This document shows, in pieces, positions 6,082 to 15,221 of a DNA stretch of 16,963 bases. Each line of letters begins with the position of its first letter. The stretch's first letter is position 1. The translations under genes were made by a program, and so were the position numbers. The stretch is taken from the NCBI GenBank assembly GCA_902792495.1, contig CADBAC010000004.1:1-16963 (forward strand). The letters are read 5' to 3'. Under the pieces are notes generated by a model. That model saw only the letters and a list, made by a program, of their open reading frames with translations. It was not told where the DNA came from and did not search any database. The DNA comes from Ruminococcus flavefaciens (lineage in GTDB: Bacteria > Bacillota > Clostridia > Oscillospirales > Ruminococcaceae).

Positions 6082-7248
6082 TTGAATAAGCATATGAAGC
6101 TTCTGTTTTCCGCACTCTTCATCATTGTCATCGTCCTTGCCGTTGCTATCACACGCTTCTTTTCCGATACGGGAAAAAACACCTATGAAGGCGGCGCTCA
6201 GTCTGTAATCGCAAAAAAACTCAGCACCGATGACAGCGGCAACTTCCTGTTTCAGGATACCGCAGGCAAATACGGCCTTGCAGACATCAGTGAAAGAGTG
6301 ACTGTTTCTCCCGAATGGGATAACCTCTCTTTCGCAGGTCCGGGGCTGTGTATTGCGGAAACACAGATCAAGGGCAGCAAGCTGCTCGGCTGTATCGACT
6401 ATGAGGGAAATGCAGTCGTGCCTTTTATATATGACAGTATAGAATCCCACACTATTAACGATCTGAAATTCTATACCGCCACCGCTCACTCAGACGGTTC
6501 ATGCGTTATATATAATAATGATCTCACCCCTGCTTTCACAAGATCATGGGTTTCCTTTGAAGCAGAAGGCAACGAGGTAACCCTTACCACAGACAAGGGC
6601 TCTTACATTTACTCAGTAAGCAAAAACGGATTCGCTCTCAAAAATGCCGTAGTCCACGGCAAAGCGGATACCTCTGAATACAAAATAGACATCACCAGCA
6701 AGCTCCTGCTCTCGAAGCTGAGCGTTTCAATGCTGGAAATAATGTCGGAAAACGCAGGCAGATATATACGGTATGCATTCTCCGAAGATGAGACTGTCCT
6801 TGCAGACATACCGCATTCGGACAATGCTGTATTCACTCCGCTCTTTCCCGATGACCCTCAGCTGGTCTCGAAACGCCTGAGAGGAGTGCCCGATATCTTC
6901 CTCTATTCCACCCGTTCAGATGACGATATACCGCATTTTGCAGTTGCCGTCACTGCGGATACCGAGCTTACCTATCACGACGATAACGGAAAGCTCAGCC
7001 ATATGAATGAGAAATACAAAGCGGTTATCGAATTCTGCGGCGGCTCGGCAGGCGAACTCAAAGCCCTTTCAGGCGGCTTTGAAGCCATAAGGCCTGAATA
7101 TCCGCCTCCGGAGCCCGAACATCCTCCCATCAGCGAACAGGCCGCCGGTGAAAACGGCTACACTTCGGGAGGCACCGCATCTCCTGCCATTGAAGATAAT
7201 TCCGATGGCAGCAGCATATTACAAAAAGGAGAACAAGAAAATGTCTAA
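6082..7248 (+). CDS. Membrane-anchored WG-repeat protein
   Basis: The 388-residue protein starts at TTG and has one N-terminal membrane segment (about residues 5-27) with no clear cleavage site, so it is probably anchored with its bulk outside. Residues about 50-122 contain WG-type beta repeats (KYGLADISERVTVSPEWDNLSF, then LLGCIDYEGNAVVPFIYDSIE). The middle and later parts are not recognised. The C-terminus is Pro/Glu-rich (PEYPPPEPEHPP) and then Gly/Ser-rich, probably disordered. WG repeats occur in many surface and secreted proteins of Firmicutes and Bacteroidetes; their role is generally unclear. Its last codons overlap purE by 8 nt and contain the purE ribosome site, so the two genes are very likely translationally linked. 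The connection to the upstream glycosyltransferase is positional only. Confidence 0.8.
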   Translation: MNKHMKLLFSALFIIVIVLAVAITRFFSDTGKNTYEGGAQSVIAKKLSTDDSGNFLFQDTAGKYGLADISERVTVSPEWDNLSFAGPGLCIAETQIKGSKLLGCIDYEGNAVVPFIYDSIESHTINDLKFYTATAHSDGSCVIYNNDLTPAFTRSWVSFEAEGNEVTLTTDKGSYIYSVSKNGFALKNAVVHGKADTSEYKIDITSKLLLSKLSVSMLEIMSENAGRYIRYAFSEDETVLADIPHSDNAVFTPLFPDDPQLVSKRLRGVPDIFLYSTRSDDDIPHFAVAVTADTELTYHDDNGKLSHMNEKYKAVIEFCGGSAGELKALSGGFEAIRPEYPPPEPEHPPISEQAAGENGYTSGGTASPAIEDNSDGSSILQKGEQENV

Positions 7249-7741
7249 AAAAGTTGCAGTTATCATGGGAAGCGACAGCGATTTCCCTGTTGTTAAATCA
7301 GCTCTCACAGAGCTTAAAAAGTACGGCGTTGAATTTGAATGCCGTGTAATGAGCGCTCACAGAACTCCCGCAGAAGCTTGTGAATTTGCTTCAAACGCAA
7401 GAGCAAACGGCTTCGGTGCTATCATCTGTGCCGCAGGTATGGCCGCTCACCTTGCAGGTGTTGTTGCAGGCCACACAACTCTCCCTGTTATCGGTATCCC
7501 TATGAAGTCAAAGGCTCTCGAAGGTGTCGATGCTCTTCTCGCTACAGTTATGATGCCTCCCGGAGTACCTGTTGCTACTGTTGGTATCGACGGCGCTAAG
7601 AATGCAGCTGTACTGGCTGTTCAGATGCTTGCCATATCAGATGAGGCTCTCGCCGAGAAGCTTGCTGCCGAGAAGAAGGCTATGGCTGACGGCGTTATCG
7701 CTAAGGACAAGGCTTTACAGGAGCAGATCGCTGCACTGTAA
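7241..7741 (+). CDS. purE: N5-carboxyaminoimidazole ribonucleotide mutase (PurE, class I)
   Basis: PurE converts N5-CAIR to CAIR in de novo purine synthesis; class I enzymes receive N5-CAIR from PurK. The 166-residue protein (MSKKVAVIMGSDSDFPVV) has the nucleotide-binding GSDSD at 10-14, the class I signature SAHRTP near 38-43, CAAGMAAHLAGVVAGHT near 63-79 and MPPGVPVAT. The length is typical of the catalytic domain alone. Longer in-frame starts upstream (from 7148) lie inside the WG gene and lack the usual PurE N-terminus. AAAAAGGAG just before 7241 supports this start. No purK lies within the window, so it must be elsewhere if the class I chemistry holds. Confidence 0.96.
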   Translation: MSKKVAVIMGSDSDFPVVKSALTELKKYGVEFECRVMSAHRTPAEACEFASNARANGFGAIICAAGMAAHLAGVVAGHTTLPVIGIPMKSKALEGVDALLATVMMPPGVPVATVGIDGAKNAAVLAVQMLAISDEALAEKLAAEKKAMADGVIAKDKALQEQIAAL

Positions 7742-7762: not shown

Positions 7763-8419
7763 ATGACACCACAGGAAAGAAAACAACGCACCGAAAACAT
7801 ACTCAGAGAAAAAGGTATCAGCTTCTTTGACGGCCTGCCGATGACCGAATCAGCAGATCAGGTAAAACTCAAGGATTTCGATACCGTTTGCAGAAGAGCC
7901 GTTGCCGCTCTGCTGTGTACGCAGATGGCTATCGAGCTCAACGAGAACAACACCGAAAATGCAGGAAGATTCGCAAATCTCATCGCTTACTTCGATGTGA
8001 ACAAGTCGCTGAACGCCAGGGAATCCAAACTTTTTGACGGCACTGCAACAAAGCAGGATATAACCGATATCGTCTGGGAATACGAATGCTACTGGGCTCT
8101 GGTATGGGCTCTGGGTCTCATTGATGATATCAGCGATGCAAGCGATATCTGTGACTGCCGCAAGGCTATACAGTTCGTTTCAAAATGCGAAGGTCTAGAT
8201 GACTTCAAGTCAAAGTGCAGTCTCCGCAGCGCTGACGAAATACTGGATATGCTGGATCTTTACTACCGTTATCACTGGGCTGTTGTTCAGCATCAGCACG
8301 TTGACCCGAACTGCTCTGTCGGCGATCTGAACGGTGAAGTCGTTTTCGAGCGCAGACGTGGTCTTGAATGGCTCATCTGCGATACTGCGGACTGGCATGA
8401 CATCTCCCTGCATACATAA
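7763..8419 (+). CDS. DUF4272 domain protein
   Basis: This 218-residue soluble protein matches DUF4272 by pattern: an N-terminal R/K-rich start with a GLPM motif (RKQRTENILREKG, FFDGLPM), CRRAVAALLCTQMA (about 47-60), WEYECYWALVWALG (112-125), LDLYYRYHWAVVQ (about 164-176) and a C-terminal VVFERRRGLEWLICD...DW. The biochemical role of DUF4272 is unknown. AGGAGG (7750-7755) lies 7 nt before ATG, 21 nt after purE stops, so it is in the purE transcript. The HAD gene starts 1 nt after its stop. Its place between purE and purC suggests a housekeeping or purine-linked role, but nothing in the sequence shows one. Confidence 0.85.
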   Translation: MTPQERKQRTENILREKGISFFDGLPMTESADQVKLKDFDTVCRRAVAALLCTQMAIELNENNTENAGRFANLIAYFDVNKSLNARESKLFDGTATKQDITDIVWEYECYWALVWALGLIDDISDASDICDCRKAIQFVSKCEGLDDFKSKCSLRSADEILDMLDLYYRYHWAVVQHQHVDPNCSVGDLNGEVVFERRRGLEWLICDTADWHDISLHT

Positions 8420-8420
8420 T

Positions 8421-9074
8421 ATGGATAGATTTACTGCTCTTCTTTTTGACCTTGACGGAACTCTTACAGACTCCGCTGAGGGCATAATCAACTGCATGAA
8501 ACACGCTCTTACCGCTATGGGACGTGAGATCCCCGACGATATGAACCGCTTTCTCGGTCCGCCGCTTTATGAGTCTTTCGATAAATTCTGCGGAATGAAC
8601 GAGGAGGAGGTCCTCGAAGCGGTAAGGATATTCCGTGAAAGATACAGCACTGTCGGCCTTTTCGAGAACCGTGTCTACGACGGCATCCCCGAAATGCTGG
8701 AACGTCTCAGTCAGGGCGGCAAACAGCTCTATGTAGCCACAAGCAAGCCTGAAGTCTACGCAAAGCGCATACTGGACAAGTTCGGGCTTTCATGGTATTT
8801 CCCAGTTATCGGCGGTGCTGATATAAACGGCACACGCAATAACAAATGGGAAGTCATCGAGTACGTTCTCGCCCGGGCAGGCATCACCGACAGGAGCGGC
8901 GTACTTATGATAGGCGACCGCAGACAGGATGTGCTGGGGGCTCATAAAACAGGGCTGAAATGTCTCGGCACTCTCTGGGGCTACGGTCCCATAGAAGAAC
9001 TTACTGAGGCAGGTGCGGACTTCATCGCACATACGCCGCAGGAAGCCGCTGATATGCTGCTCGGAAAGGAATGA
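8421..9074 (+). CDS. HAD-family phosphatase (phosphoglycolate phosphatase-like)
   Basis: The 217-residue protein has all four HAD motifs: DLDGT with nucleophile D10 and acid D12, ATSKP (T107/S108), K142 in NNKWEV and GDRRQD (D166 and D170). An alpha-helical cap sits between motifs I and II (about 18-85), as in the Gph/subfamily I group. The expected activity is phosphate-ester hydrolysis with magnesium; substrates in this group include phosphoglycolate, nucleotides and sugar phosphates, and the purine setting makes a nucleotide plausible but unproven. I chose ATG 8421 because the protein then opens directly with MDRFTALLFDLDGT; an upstream GTG (8334) would lie inside the DUF4272 gene. No strong ribosome site precedes it, and the 1-nt gap from the DUF4272 stop suggests termination-reinitiation. 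Confidence 0.9.
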   Translation: MDRFTALLFDLDGTLTDSAEGIINCMKHALTAMGREIPDDMNRFLGPPLYESFDKFCGMNEEEVLEAVRIFRERYSTVGLFENRVYDGIPEMLERLSQGGKQLYVATSKPEVYAKRILDKFGLSWYFPVIGGADINGTRNNKWEVIEYVLARAGITDRSGVLMIGDRRQDVLGAHKTGLKCLGTLWGYGPIEELTEAGADFIAHTPQEAADMLLGKE

Positions 9075-9389: not shown

Positions 9390-10109
9390 ATGGAAAACAT
9401 CGAAAAAAAGGAACAGCTCTATGAGGGCAAGGCTAAGAAAGTCTATGCTACAAACGATCCCGACCTCGTTATCGTTGACTACAAGGATGACGCTACCGCT
9501 TTCAACGGCGAAAAGAAGGGTACTATCGCAGGCAAGGGTGTCATCAACAACAAAATGACAAACTTCATGTTCAAAATGCTCGAAAAGGAAGGCGTTCCTA
9601 CTCATCTCGTTGAAGAGATCAGCGACCGTGAAACTATCGTAAAGAAGGTCTCCATCGTTCCTCTTGAAGTTATCATCAGAAACGTTGCAGCAGGCAGCTT
9701 CTCAAAGAGAATGGGCGTTGAGGAAGGCAAGCAGCTCCTCTGTCCTATCCTTGAATACAGCTACAAGAACGACGACCTCGGCGATCCTTTCATCAACGAT
9801 TACTATGCTCTCGCTCTCGGTATCGCTACAAAGGAAGAACTCGACACTATCGCTAAGTACGCTTTCAAGGTAAACGAGTTCATGGTAAAGTTCTTCAAGG
9901 GACTCAACATCGACCTCATCGACTTCAAGATCGAGTTCGGTAAGACTTCAGACGGCACTATCATCCTCGCTGATGAGATCTCTCCTGATACCTGCCGTTT
10001 CTGGGACAGCACTACTCACGAAAAGCTTGATAAGGACCGTTTCCGCAGAGATATGGGCGGCGTAGAAGAAGCTTATCAGGAAATCATGAAGAGACTTATG
10101 GGAGAATAA
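9390..10109 (+). CDS. purC: SAICAR synthetase (PurC)
   Basis: PurC joins CAIR and aspartate with ATP to form SAICAR, the step directly after PurE. The 239-residue protein is the usual bacterial length. It shows [15 protein letters not shown] (ATP-binding start, about 10-24), FNGEKKG (about 38-44), [18 protein letters not shown] (about 90-107), [10 protein letters not shown] (about 176-185) and [14 protein letters not shown], which is the family's C-terminal active-site signature. CAGGAGG lies about 9 nt before ATG. The next gene starts 4 nt after its stop, so translation is probably coupled. Nothing unusual is visible. Confidence 0.97.
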
Positions 10110-10113
10110 TTGT

Positions 10114-11538
10114 ATGGGCGGTTTTTTCGGTGCAGCTTCTAAAAACGACTGCGTGACAGACGTTTTCTTCGGTACTGACTACCACTCACACCTCGGCACA
10201 CGCAGAGGCGGTATGACTTCATATTCAGAAGACTGCGGATTTCAGAGAAATATCCACAGTATCGAGAATTCTCCTTTCAGAACCAAATTTGAAAATGACG
10301 TTGTAAGGATGAAGGGCAAGCTCTGTATCGGATGTATCAGCGATACAGACCCACAGCCTATCCTCGTTCGTTCAAAGATGGGACTTTACGCTGTATGTTC
10401 AGTGGGTATCATCCGCAATGCCGATACTCTTGTTGATGAACTTCTCGAAAAGGGATGTGCCAACTTCGAGACAATGAGCAGCGGAAAGATAAACTCAGGC
10501 GACCTCATCGGCGCTCTCATCGCTCAGAAGGACAACTTCGTTGACGGTATCCGCTACGCTCAGAGCAAGATAGAGGGTACTATGTCACTTATCATTCTCA
10601 CTAAGGACGGCATCATCGCTGCCCGTGACGAATTCGGAAGGCTCCCTATCATCATCGGCAAGCGCTCCGACGGCTACTGCCTCTCGACCGAGTCTTTCGC
10701 TTTCCAGAAGCTGGGTTACACAACTTACAAGGAGCTTGCGGCAGGCGAGATAGTAAAGCTTACTGCTGACGAATGTCAGGTAATGGCTGAGGGCGATCCT
10801 TCAAAGATGAAGATATGTACCTTTCTCTGGACCTACTACGGCTACCCGAATGCTGTATACGAAGGCGTGAACGTTGAAGTCATGCGTACACGCAACGGCG
10901 AGATAATGGCCGAAAACGATATCAACGCAGGCAGACTTCCCGATGTTGACTATGTCTGTGGAGTTCCCGATTCAGGTACTCCTCACGCTATCGGCTATGC
11001 TAACCGCAGCGGTATCCCATTTGCACGTCCGTTCATCAAGTATACTCCCACATGGCCGAGAAGCTTCATGCCTACAAACCAGAGCATGAGAAATCAGGTA
11101 GCTAAGATGAAGCTCATTCCTGTTCATGAACTTATCGAAGGCAAGCGTCTCCTCTTCGTTGACGACAGTATCGTAAGAGGTACTCAGATGAGAGAGACCG
11201 TTGAGTTTCTCTATGAGAACGGCGCTAAGGAAGTACATATGCGTTCTGCTTGTCCTCCTATCATGTACGGCTGCAAGTACCTCAACTTCTCACGCAGCCA
11301 TTCAGAGCTGGAGCTTATCGCAAGACAGATCATCGACGAATTTGAAGGCGCTGAAGGCGTTAAGTACCTCGCTGAGTACAGCGATACAAATACCGAAAGA
11401 GGCAGACGTATGCGTGATGAGATATGCCGCAGACTCAAGCTCACTTCACTGGAATTCCAGTCGCTCCCGGGCAAGGTAAAGGCTGTGGGACTTCCACAAT
11501 GTCAGCTTTGTACTTATTGCTGGGACGGAAACGAATAA
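10114..11538 (+). CDS. PurF-like amidophosphoribosyltransferase lacking the glutaminase nucleophile
   Basis: The 474-residue protein aligns by eye along its whole length with Bacillus PurF, which makes phosphoribosylamine from PRPP and glutamine. The phosphoribosyltransferase half is intact: GVPDSGTPHAIGYA (283-296) and the PRPP loop FVDDSIVRGT (348-357). Cysteines aligned with the Bacillus 4Fe-4S ligands are present (C235, C387, C466, C469), plus C463. The glutaminase half is not intact. The canonical N-terminal CGxFG is GGFFG here, so the nucleophilic Cys is Gly2. HRGQExAG has become TRRGGMTSY, the RYxTAG motif is ISDTDP (75-80), and the HNGNL loop is SVGIIR. The fold is retained but glutamine hydrolysis is not expected. 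It could use free ammonia, an ammonia partner, or be a non-standard paralogue. I left the symbol blank for that reason. GGGAG within the purC end serves as ribosome site. Confidence 0.85.
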   Translation: MGGFFGAASKNDCVTDVFFGTDYHSHLGTRRGGMTSYSEDCGFQRNIHSIENSPFRTKFENDVVRMKGKLCIGCISDTDPQPILVRSKMGLYAVCSVGIIRNADTLVDELLEKGCANFETMSSGKINSGDLIGALIAQKDNFVDGIRYAQSKIEGTMSLIILTKDGIIAARDEFGRLPIIIGKRSDGYCLSTESFAFQKLGYTTYKELAAGEIVKLTADECQVMAEGDPSKMKICTFLWTYYGYPNAVYEGVNVEVMRTRNGEIMAENDINAGRLPDVDYVCGVPDSGTPHAIGYANRSGIPFARPFIKYTPTWPRSFMPTNQSMRNQVAKMKLIPVHELIEGKRLLFVDDSIVRGTQMRETVEFLYENGAKEVHMRSACPPIMYGCKYLNFSRSHSELELIARQIIDEFEGAEGVKYLAEYSDTNTERGRRMRDEICRRLKLTSLEFQSLPGKVKAVGLPQCQLCTYCWDGNE

Positions 11539-11540
11539 AT

Positions 11541-11661
11541 CAATTCGTAATTCATAATGCGTAATGCGTAATTATTGTGTTCGCTTTGCTCACATTTTTA
11601 ATTTGTCTGCCGTCAGGCAGACACCGCAATTACGAATTACGAATTAAGCATTACGCATTAA
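11541..11661. repeat. Heptad-repeat palindromic element between purF-like and purM
   Basis: The left arm (11541-11575) is five 7-bp units of CAATTCG / TAATTCA / TAATGCG / TAATGCG / TAATTAT type. The right arm (11627-11661) is five units CAATTAC / GAATTAC / GAATTAA / GCATTAC / GCATTAA. The arms are roughly inverse complements, best when shifted by two units. Between them is an 8-bp perfect hairpin TGTCTGCC-GTCA-GGCAGACA (11604-11623). The arrangement resembles small non-coding interspersed palindromic elements (MITE/REP-like). It ends 8 bp before the purM ribosome site. No transposase gene or clear target-site duplication is visible. Confidence 0.8.
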
Positions 11662-11669
11662 AAAAATAT

Positions 11670-11674
11670 GGAGG
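11670..11674 (+). promoter_or_regulatory. Ribosome binding site that selects the purM start
   Basis: GGAGG lies 8 nt before ATG 11683. A slightly earlier in-frame ATG (11668) would overlap this site and add five residues not expected for PurM. Confidence 0.85.
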
Positions 11675-11682
11675 ATTTTTAT

Positions 11683-12720
11683 ATGAACAACAGTTTTTCC
11701 GAAAGCTACAAGAAGGCAGGCGTTGACGTAACCGCAGGCTACAAGTCAGTTGAGCTTATGAAGGAGCATATCGCCCGCACTATGATAAAGGGCGCTCTCT
11801 CAGGCATCGGCGGATTCGGCGGTCTCTTTGAGCTGGATATGACAGGTATCAATAAGCCTGTTCTCGTATCAGGCACTGACGGCGTCGGCACTAAGATCAA
11901 GATCGCTTTCATCATGGATAAGCATGATACTGTAGGTATCGACTGCGTTGCTATGTGCGTCAACGACATCATCTGCTGCGGCGCAAAGCCACAGTTCTTC
12001 CTCGACTATATCGCCTGCGGCAAGAACTATCCCGAAAAGATAGCTACTATCGTTTCAGGTGTCGCTGAGGGCTGTGTACAGGCAGAATGCGCTCTCATCG
12101 GCGGTGAAACTGCTGAACATCCGGGCCTTATGCCTGAGGATGAATACGACCTTGCAGGCTTCTCAGTAGGCGTTGTTGACAAGGACAAGATCCTCCAGCC
12201 CGATACACAGAAGGCAGGCGATGTACTTATCGCTATCAAGTCAAGCGGTGTACATTCAAACGGCTTCTCTCTCGTAAGAAGCGTTTTCGATGTAAACGAG
12301 CAGAACCTTTCCATGCATTTCGATGACCTGGGCGCTACTCTCGGCGAGACTCTCCTCACTCCTACACGTATCTACGTTAAGGCTGTGATGAGCCTCCTTG
12401 ACGCTGTAAAGGTAAAGTCCATCTCACACATCACAGGCGGCGGTTTCTATGAGAACATCCCACGTTCACTTCCAAAGAACCTTGCTGCAAAGATCGAAAG
12501 AAACGCTGTTCAGGTACTCCCTATCTTTGATCTTATCAAGAGAACAGGCGATATCCCTGAGCGTGATATGTTCAATACATTCAACATGGGCGTAGGTATG
12601 ATCGTTTCCGTAGACAAGAACGATGCTGACAAGGCTGTTGCCGCTATAAAGGCAGCAGGCGAGGATGCTTACATCCTCGGCGAGCTCGTTGAATCAGAGG
12701 AAGGCGTTATCATCTGCTGA
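11683..12720 (+). CDS. purM: Phosphoribosylformylglycinamidine cyclo-ligase (AIR synthetase, PurM)
   Basis: PurM closes FGAM to AIR using ATP. The 345-residue protein has the usual length and the family pattern: [14 protein letters not shown] (about 8-21), GGFGGLFEL (about 43-51), [15 protein letters not shown] (about 61-75), the metal/ATP-site [18 protein letters not shown] (about 91-108), [10 protein letters not shown] (about 139-148) and [13 protein letters not shown] (about 248-260). The C-terminal half is complete, ending in [13 protein letters not shown]. Its substrate enzyme PurL is not in the window, but PurN downstream supplies FGAR upstream of it in the pathway. A terminator-like hairpin follows the stop by 8 bp, so purM probably ends one transcript segment. 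Confidence 0.97.
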
Positions 12721-14618: not shown

Positions 14619-15221
14619 ATGAAAAATATAGTTGTGCTCGTTTCGGGCGGAGGTACTAATTTACAGGCACTTATAGATGCCGAGAAAAGCGGTATCATCA
14701 AGGGCGGAAAAATAACCTGCGTCATCGCTTCAAAGGACGGCGTTTACGCTCTGGAACGTGCTAAAAATAACGATATCCCCACAAGAGTCATCCCACGCAA
14801 GGAGTACTCAGACAGCGTAAGCTACAGCAAAGCTATCCTTGAAGCTCTCAATGATGAGAAAGCCGACCTTGTGGTGCTTGCAGGCTTCATGACAATTCTC
14901 GATGAATGCGTCACAAAGGCATACGCTTATAAGATAATCAACGTTCACCCTGCACTTATCCCGTCATTCTGCGGCGAAGGCTACTACGGACTGAAAGTCC
15001 ATGAAGCCGCTCTCGCTTACGGTGTAAAGGTCAGCGGTGCTACAATTCATTTCGTCAACGAGAAAGCAGATGCAGGTGCTATCATCCTTCAGGGCACTGT
15101 TGAAGTGCAGAAGGACGATACCCCGGAAGTTCTCCAGAGACGTATCATGGAAAATGTGGAGTGGAAGCTTCTTCCGAAGGCTGTATCACTTTTCTGTCAG
15201 GACAGGATAGAGATAATATAA
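14619..15221 (+). CDS. purN: Phosphoribosylglycinamide formyltransferase (PurN)
   Basis: PurN transfers a formyl group from 10-formyl-tetrahydrofolate to GAR, giving FGAR. The 200-residue protein is of normal length. It begins with VLVSGGGTNLQAL (7-18), the phosphate-binding loop, and carries the catalytic triad N108, H110 and D151 in INVHPALIPSF (107-117) and NEKADAGAII (147-156). The loop after the HP motif (CGEGYYGLKVHEAAL) lacks the PGLHA-type text of the E. coli enzyme; this variant is one I associate with Clostridia. TGGAGG lies 9 nt before ATG. The following gene begins 1 nt after the stop. Confidence 0.96.
   Translation: MKNIVVLVSGGGTNLQALIDAEKSGIIKGGKITCVIASKDGVYALERAKNNDIPTRVIPRKEYSDSVSYSKAILEALNDEKADLVVLAGFMTILDECVTKAYAYKIINVHPALIPSFCGEGYYGLKVHEAALAYGVKVSGATIHFVNEKADAGAIILQGTVEVQKDDTPEVLQRRIMENVEWKLLPKAVSLFCQDRIEII

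Follow-up and report, generated by a model that had tools for sequence, protein, structure and literature searches.

A PurF-type gene lacking the catalytic cysteine in a purine cluster

The window analysed here is the whole stretch of 16,963 nucleotides from Ruminococcus flavefaciens contig CADBAC010000004.1, part of a 2.57 Mb assembly of 531 contigs that is 79.6% complete. It carries a gene for a Cys-less PurF-type protein, referred to here as MGG PurF, whose residues we number along the 474-aa product from the MGG start. As an earlier, sequence-only reading had stated, the gene lies inside a purine cluster, with purE and purC upstream and purM and purN downstream (Table 1). Near-identical proteins are mostly labelled Ruminococcus where the source gives a name.

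Between purE and purC (window 7763-9074) lie genes for a DUF4272 protein and a HAD-family hydrolase; among the purine loci of relatives, both occur in L041 and L052, and the HAD gene alone in L038, L053, L092 and L101. The gap between MGG PurF and purM (window 11540-11665) is AT-rich, and inspection by eye suggests that it contains an imperfect palindrome, TAATTCGTAATT...AATTACGAATTA. This may be a small repeat element, although the repeat finder did not report it at the settings used.

Table 1. Positions of genes and motifs in the window, and of riboswitches and pepT-linked regions in other loci
Feature	Sequence	Position	Strand	Remark
purE	window	7241..7741	+	TIGR01162; ATG start likely, inside ORF 7148-7741
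purC	window	9390..10109	+	stop 4 bases before MGG PurF start codon
MGG PurF	window	10114..11538	+	Cys-less PurF-type protein, 474 aa, starts MGGFFG
GGFFG	window	10117..10131	+	replaces catalytic CGxFG (alignment)
TRRGGM	window	10198..10215	+	residues 29-34; paired with HRGQE in the sequence-only reading
ISDTDP	window	10336..10353	+	residues 75-80; RYxTxG glutamine-binding loop deleted here
SVGIIR	window	10399..10416	+	residues 96-101; replaces HNGNL
Cys235	window	10816..10818	+	aligned with B. subtilis PurF Cys236; C in 147/147
YTPTWPRSF	window	11041..11067	+	remodelled flexible loop, replaces NRYxGRTF
VDDSIVRGT	window	11158..11184	+	PRPP-binding loop, kept (alignment)
Cys387	window	11272..11274	+	aligned with B. 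subtilis PurF Cys382; C in 147/147
C466-T-Y-C469	window	11509..11520	+	aligned with canonical C-terminal CxxC; C in 146/147, one row gap
purM	window	11668..12720	+	
purN	window	14619..15221	+	
ZMP/ZTP riboswitch	L107	6605-6687		
ZMP/ZTP riboswitch	L111	2839-2917		
ZMP/ZTP riboswitch	L126	7329-7428		
ZMP/ZTP riboswitch	L137	7337-7418		
ZMP/ZTP riboswitch	L139	7310-7390		
ZMP/ZTP riboswitch	L149	6640-6727		
ZMP/ZTP riboswitch	L150	6635-6729		
pepT-linked region	L192	8001-10800		
pepT-linked region	L193	8001-11783		
pepT-linked region	L194	8001-11904		
pepT-linked region	L197	3001-6855		

The glutamine site is lost across the relatives

Canonical PurF uses as its nucleophile the Cys that follows the initiator Met or a propeptide (CGxFG), and its glutamine site also includes a glutamine-binding Arg, an oxyanion Asn and an Asp. 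To follow these positions we aligned 209 sequences, 147 MGG PurF relatives and 62 canonical PurFs. The pattern that collected the sequences, for this alignment and for the family-versus-canonical tree below, requires DYHSH; Bacteroidota members, which have DYNSH, were left out and read by eye.

The nucleophile column (Cys1) is Cys in 62/62 canonical sequences versus Gly in 138 and Ser in 9 of the 147 relatives. The window protein has Gly2 there, as first read, and Cys occurs in none of the relatives. The in-frame stretch from the start back to the preceding stop (RDLWENNC) contains no ATG, GTG or TTG codon, excluding an upstream start that would supply a Cys. The RYxTxG loop is gone where the sequence-only reading had placed ISDTDP, its R, Y, T and G columns being gaps in 147/147 relatives. 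That reading was also right to see HNGNL replaced by SVGIIR: the oxyanion Asn104 column holds Val in 105 relatives and Ile in 42. The Asp129 column has Asp in 0/147. TRRGGM, which the sequence-only reading set against HRGQE, is present as quoted; in the alignment, canonical HRGQE pairs with HLGTR (residues 26-30). With Gly or Ser at the Cys1 column in all 147 relatives, the suggestion of a family rather than a single mutation stands; on this alignment, the lost glutamine site is a trait of a distinct family, neither decay nor a lone mutation.

PRPP-loop residues, Fe-S-type cysteines and the predicted fold are retained

The phosphoribosyltransferase (PRT) half retains the PRPP site, as had been claimed: the DDSIVRGT loop is present, and D350, D351 and S352 occur in 147/147 relatives. 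The flexible loop is remodelled and conserved in its new form, with Y310, W314, R316 and F318 in 147/147; in the predicted model its residues 312-318 have pLDDT below 50. Of 68 PRT-domain columns that are invariant in canonical PurF, the family keeps only 37, so the chemistry may differ. Our guess is that the altered loop and PRT residues could fit changed ammonia access or a loss of nucleotide control.

The four Fe-S ligand positions of B. subtilis PurF align with Cys235, Cys387, C466 and C469, so that by alignment position all four Fe-S-type cysteines are kept in MGG PurF. The predicted model has the PurF two-domain fold, in line with the claim that the fold is kept. Pfam matches in the protein are a GATase_7 domain plus a phosphoribosyltransferase domain below its cut-off, and the nearest solved structures by sequence are the B. 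subtilis PurF chains 1gph and 1ao0.

MGG PurF is separate from canonical PurF and under purifying selection

The NCBIfam purF model TIGR01134 matches MGG PurF over residues 77-422 with 191.9 bits, against a cut-off of 350. We built a tree of 128 sequences, for which thinning at 80% identity had reduced 179 MGG PurF sequences to 91 and 84 canonical ones to 37 (one of them a Paracoccus PurF). The two groups fall on opposite sides of one branch (SH-aLRT 100), whose length is 2.1 plus 2.5 changes per column. Because the tree is unrooted, it speaks to separation and not to order of origin, and a fast rate may contribute to the distance.

For 12 MGG PurF pairs, dN/dS is about 0.09 in the N domain and about 0.05 in the PRT domain; the calculation used pairs with dS below 1.2, which are 12/91 family pairs and 3/190 canonical pairs. 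In the N domain, 47 of 232 columns are at least 97% identical over the 147 sequences, and the residues DYHSHLGT, IHxIEN, FR(T/A)KF and ISD are invariant and specific to the clade. The sequence-only reading had called the glutaminase domain dead: its glutamine site is indeed lost, but the word is too strong for a domain under purifying selection with invariant motifs of its own.

MGG PurF is often the only PurF found

In the window's own genome, a profile search of the 80%-complete assembly found no canonical PurF; PurD and PurL are present, PurL being cut by a contig end. Three other, weak matches to the purF profile are GlmS (over the GlmS cut-off), an asparagine-synthase-type fragment and a third class-II-amidotransferase-like protein. 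The normal PurF that had been imagined beside MGG PurF is thus not seen in this assembly, incomplete as it is, although 29 of 35 congeners have one. All 35 relatives searched in the genus carry MGG PurF. The six that are missing canonical PurF all have PurD and PurL, with PurL in two pieces in one of them.

We extended the search across the order to 396 genomes, each at least 95% complete apart from the window's own. MGG PurF alone was found in 94, both forms in 135, canonical PurF alone in 142 and neither in 25; canonical PurF is therefore absent by profile search in 94/229 MGG PurF genomes of the order and present in 135/229. The purF profile scored over its cut-off in 277 genomes and gave any match at 1e-38 in 371, and each genome with only a sub-cut-off match is an MGG PurF carrier. 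The family profile hit 229 genomes, at 1e-167 or better among the matches listed. One genome counted as MGG PurF-only (G203) has two purF-profile matches (best 1e-71) that perhaps represent a canonical fragment, making 93 the safe count.

In a sample of the phylum, MGG PurF was found in 28/398 genomes; 23 of the carriers lie outside the order, and 21 of these 23 also have canonical PurF. Among the named isolates with MGG PurF that were searched, 8/12 have canonical PurF. By purF profile search, Evtepia gabavorous KLE1738 has MGG PurF only; Flavonifractor sp. An112 and Frisingicoccus caecimuris DSM 28559 have both forms. Homologs at 50-54% identity occur in Peptoclostridium acidaminophilum, Parabacteroides distasonis, Bacteroides finegoldii and Phocaeicola massiliensis, bearing out what the sequence-only reading said of such proteins in Clostridia and Bacteroidetes. 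Spread by plasmid appears unlikely: two of the three Bacteroidota "plasmid" records have annotation near MGG PurF, and these hold housekeeping genes (rplU and rpmA; eno) and look like pieces of chromosome.

MGG PurF is linked to the purine pathway

PurD consumes 5-phosphoribosylamine (PRA), the product of PurF. We searched for PurD in 60 of the 94 MGG PurF-only genomes, all listed as at least 97% complete, and in 20 of the 25 genomes with neither form, finding it in 58/60 versus 5/20 (Fisher p 2.7e-10, a value that is too small given that related genomes are not independent). MGG PurF and purD lie at most 10 kb apart on one contig in 46 of the 58 MGG PurF-only genomes with PurD. Within the order, a pur cluster is the usual setting of MGG PurF. 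Among the 80 closest named loci (the best 80 of 592, and so biased to close relatives), purE or purC precedes MGG PurF and purM follows it in 76. Sixty of those 76 show no canonical PurF, the search being confined to the locus for most of these genomes; the remaining 16 have it in the locus. In seven MGG PurF-only genomes (L239-L245; G129, G327, G370, G303, G155, G083 and G066), a pur cluster with purE, purM, purN and purD has no purF, and MGG PurF lies elsewhere with no pur genes near. ZMP/ZTP riboswitches occur shortly upstream of purE in 7 of the 18 MGG PurF sources scanned (Table 1); none was found in the window at gathering score.

Exceptions were seen on both sides. G321, one of the two MGG PurF-only genomes without PurD, has purE, purC, purM, purN and purH around MGG PurF, and PurD may just be missing from its assembly. 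G053 (locus L045) carries the protein in an MSGFFG form; PurD, PurL and canonical PurF were not found there, and MGG PurF may have another role in it. PurD was also seen where neither kind of PurF was found (G054, G080, G081, G309 and G337), some of which cases may reflect assembly gaps or an unknown source of PRA.

On a tree of 51 MGG PurF members whose canonical-PurF status is known, 11 gains or losses of canonical PurF are required, and well-supported branches force at least seven of these, a pattern that points to repeated replacement of canonical PurF by MGG PurF. Shuffled labels need 13.9 changes on average, and 23 of 500 shuffles were as low as observed, so the trait is weakly clustered; since shuffling gives nearly as few changes, the repeated changes say nothing on cause.

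A second context adjoins pepT

Outside the order, none of the 13 regions read (about 16 kb each) had pur genes close to MGG PurF. The gene next after it is pepT in Peptoclostridium and in three Bacteroidota, followed in the latter by gcvT (Table 1). A neighbor search around solitary copies, covering 35 loci (with the family gene itself recovered in 34), found pepT alone to recur in the adjacent position, in three loci plus L197. An ABC-transporter ATPase appeared in seven solitary-copy loci at scattered positions. The pepT and gcvT neighbors suggest a link with peptide or glycine catabolism, and they are compatible with MGG PurF having, or having once had, another role in ammonia-generating peptide catabolism.

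A proposed ammonia-dependent PRPP aminotransferase

We propose that MGG PurF does the job of PurF as a PRPP aminotransferase that would make PRA directly from PRPP and ammonia, a reading to which we give a probability of roughly two in three on the sequence evidence. It is the best fit because 94 of the 396 order genomes have MGG PurF and show no canonical PurF by profile search, and 58 of the 60 tested keep PurD. The gut and rumen are rich in ammonia. In the proposed scheme, MGG PurF would form PRA, the first purine step, with ammonia entering from solution at the remodelled YTPTWxRSF loop and not via a glutaminase tunnel; the former glutaminase domain would be retained as a structural or regulatory part. 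PMC3261824 reports that E. coli PurF whose Cys has been replaced can still use ammonia but no longer glutamine, which implies that a PRT domain can work without glutaminase activity. According to PMC3485032, PurF-independent routes had in no case given enough PRA for purine needs, so PurD-bearing genomes with only MGG PurF very likely depend on it.

MGG PurF is not simply a replacement, as canonical PurF coexists with it in 135 of the 229 carriers in the order, side by side in some. The coexisting forms may be a division of labor, as ammonia- and glutamine-dependent isozymes or as mixed oligomers. A possible though speculative extension is that the former glutaminase domain was rebuilt, with its clade-specific invariant residues forming a new site for a ligand, where some nitrogen donor different from glutamine is delivered or sensed. 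The family would first have served the ammonia-rich breakdown of peptides and amino acids (pepT/gcvT context); its recruitment as PurF, in place of the glutamine-dependent enzyme and on several occasions in Clostridia, would have followed.

Other accounts must be set against this proposal. MGG PurF could be a PRPP aminotransferase that receives its ammonia from a glutaminase in a different protein, either a neighboring canonical PurF, present in the same locus in 16 of the 76 pur-cluster loci, or the domain of PurL, which has a glutaminase of its own; of the 60 loci lacking canonical PurF, 25 have a large ORF, PurL-like by eye, within the cluster or close to it. We consider this unlikely, as 94/396 genomes have no canonical PurF and inspection of the recurring cluster ORFs by eye showed no separate glutaminase: when the 258 unmapped ORFs in and around the 60 clusters were grouped, the six groups present in at least 4 loci were, by eye, a PurL-like protein, three pyrimidine genes and two small proteins. 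Coexistence in 135/396 genomes, with the genes adjoining in some, would also suit an inactive regulatory partner that forms mixed tetramers with canonical PurF and alters its feedback or stability. Such a role, raised by the sequence-only reading, cannot be the full account where canonical PurF is missing; it is made quite improbable by the 94 genomes in which canonical PurF was not found, with PurD still in 58 of the 60 tested, and by the invariance of the PRPP-loop residues. A different phosphoribosyl transfer, for example to another amine, might instead serve peptide or amino-acid breakdown, the pur-cluster place being a side role and PRA being made otherwise. That idea draws on the four records in which pepT adjoins (with gcvT too in Bacteroidota), on the presence of MGG PurF in G053, and on a flexible loop and other PRT residues unlike those of canonical PurF. 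The pur-cluster position in 76 of the best 80 of 592 named loci and the strong PurD link weigh against it, as does the lack, according to PMC3485032, of a known PurF-independent route with enough PRA for purines, and we judge it improbable.

Continued use of glutamine through another nucleophile, whether the Ser found at the Cys column in 9/147 relatives or Cys13, present in 115/147, is very improbable: the column is Gly in 138/147, position 13 is Ala, Val or Ser in 32/147, and none of the 147 retains the glutamine-binding Arg, the oxyanion Asn or the Asp. Cys13, the alternative nucleophile considered, is thus not conserved; an alignment that placed another Cys in that role is what the sequence-only reading had named as refuting it. 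As for a decaying pseudogene, the lost active site might suggest one, but the open frames among the matches listed, the low dN/dS and the conserved N-domain columns leave it with virtually no credence, and purifying selection together with N-domain conservation rules decay out.

Implications and comparison with known systems

MGG PurF is a real, ordered and widespread variant whose function is strongly suggested by the genomes that carry it. Teaching has it that purine synthesis depends on glutamine at its first committed step. If the ammonia-dependent reading is true, glutamine would not be needed to begin purines in many Clostridia, which by their record titles include rumen and gut organisms; these bacteria would be insensitive to glutamine analogues at the PurF step, and their purine output would depend on the supply of ammonia. 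The label "amidophosphoribosyltransferase" covers two different proteins.

One of the closest known systems is canonical PurF (EC 2.4.2.14) of the B. subtilis Fe-S type, to seven examples of which MGG PurF is 29-32% identical. Canonical PurF has the catalytic Cys, the RYxTxG loop, the oxyanion Asn and the Asp, whereas MGG PurF is without all of these, and the canonical NRYxGRTF loop corresponds to YTPTWxRSF.

In a literature search that lay mostly outside subscription journals and preprints, the only Cys-less PurF recognized among the papers listed was that of PMC3261824. There, a crenarchaeal PurF paralog without the N-terminal Cys, PurF', is described near purine genes (2011), and its authors propose, without a test, that it is an ammonia-dependent PRPP aminotransferase. 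In the papers listed we recognized no account of a bacterial family that in many genomes is the one PurF found, of its recurrence in genomes where canonical PurF is missing, or of the pepT context. The many MGG PurF-only genomes offer material to test the proposal left open for the archaeal protein in 2011. PurF' of Crenarchaeota resembles MGG PurF in having no N-terminal Cys and in lying near other purine genes. By contrast, the archaeal protein is reported to accompany PurF in each Crenarchaeon studied, whereas the bacterial one is the only PurF found in 94/229 order carriers; many PurF' proteins are described as having Ala or Val at the Cys position where MGG PurF has Gly or Ser. The E. coli PurF Cys-to-Ala/Ser mutants (Mei and Zalkin 1989, cited through PMC3261824), which do not use glutamine and accept ammonia, provide the other parallel: they are laboratory point mutants, whereas MGG PurF has naturally lost its entire glutamine pocket.
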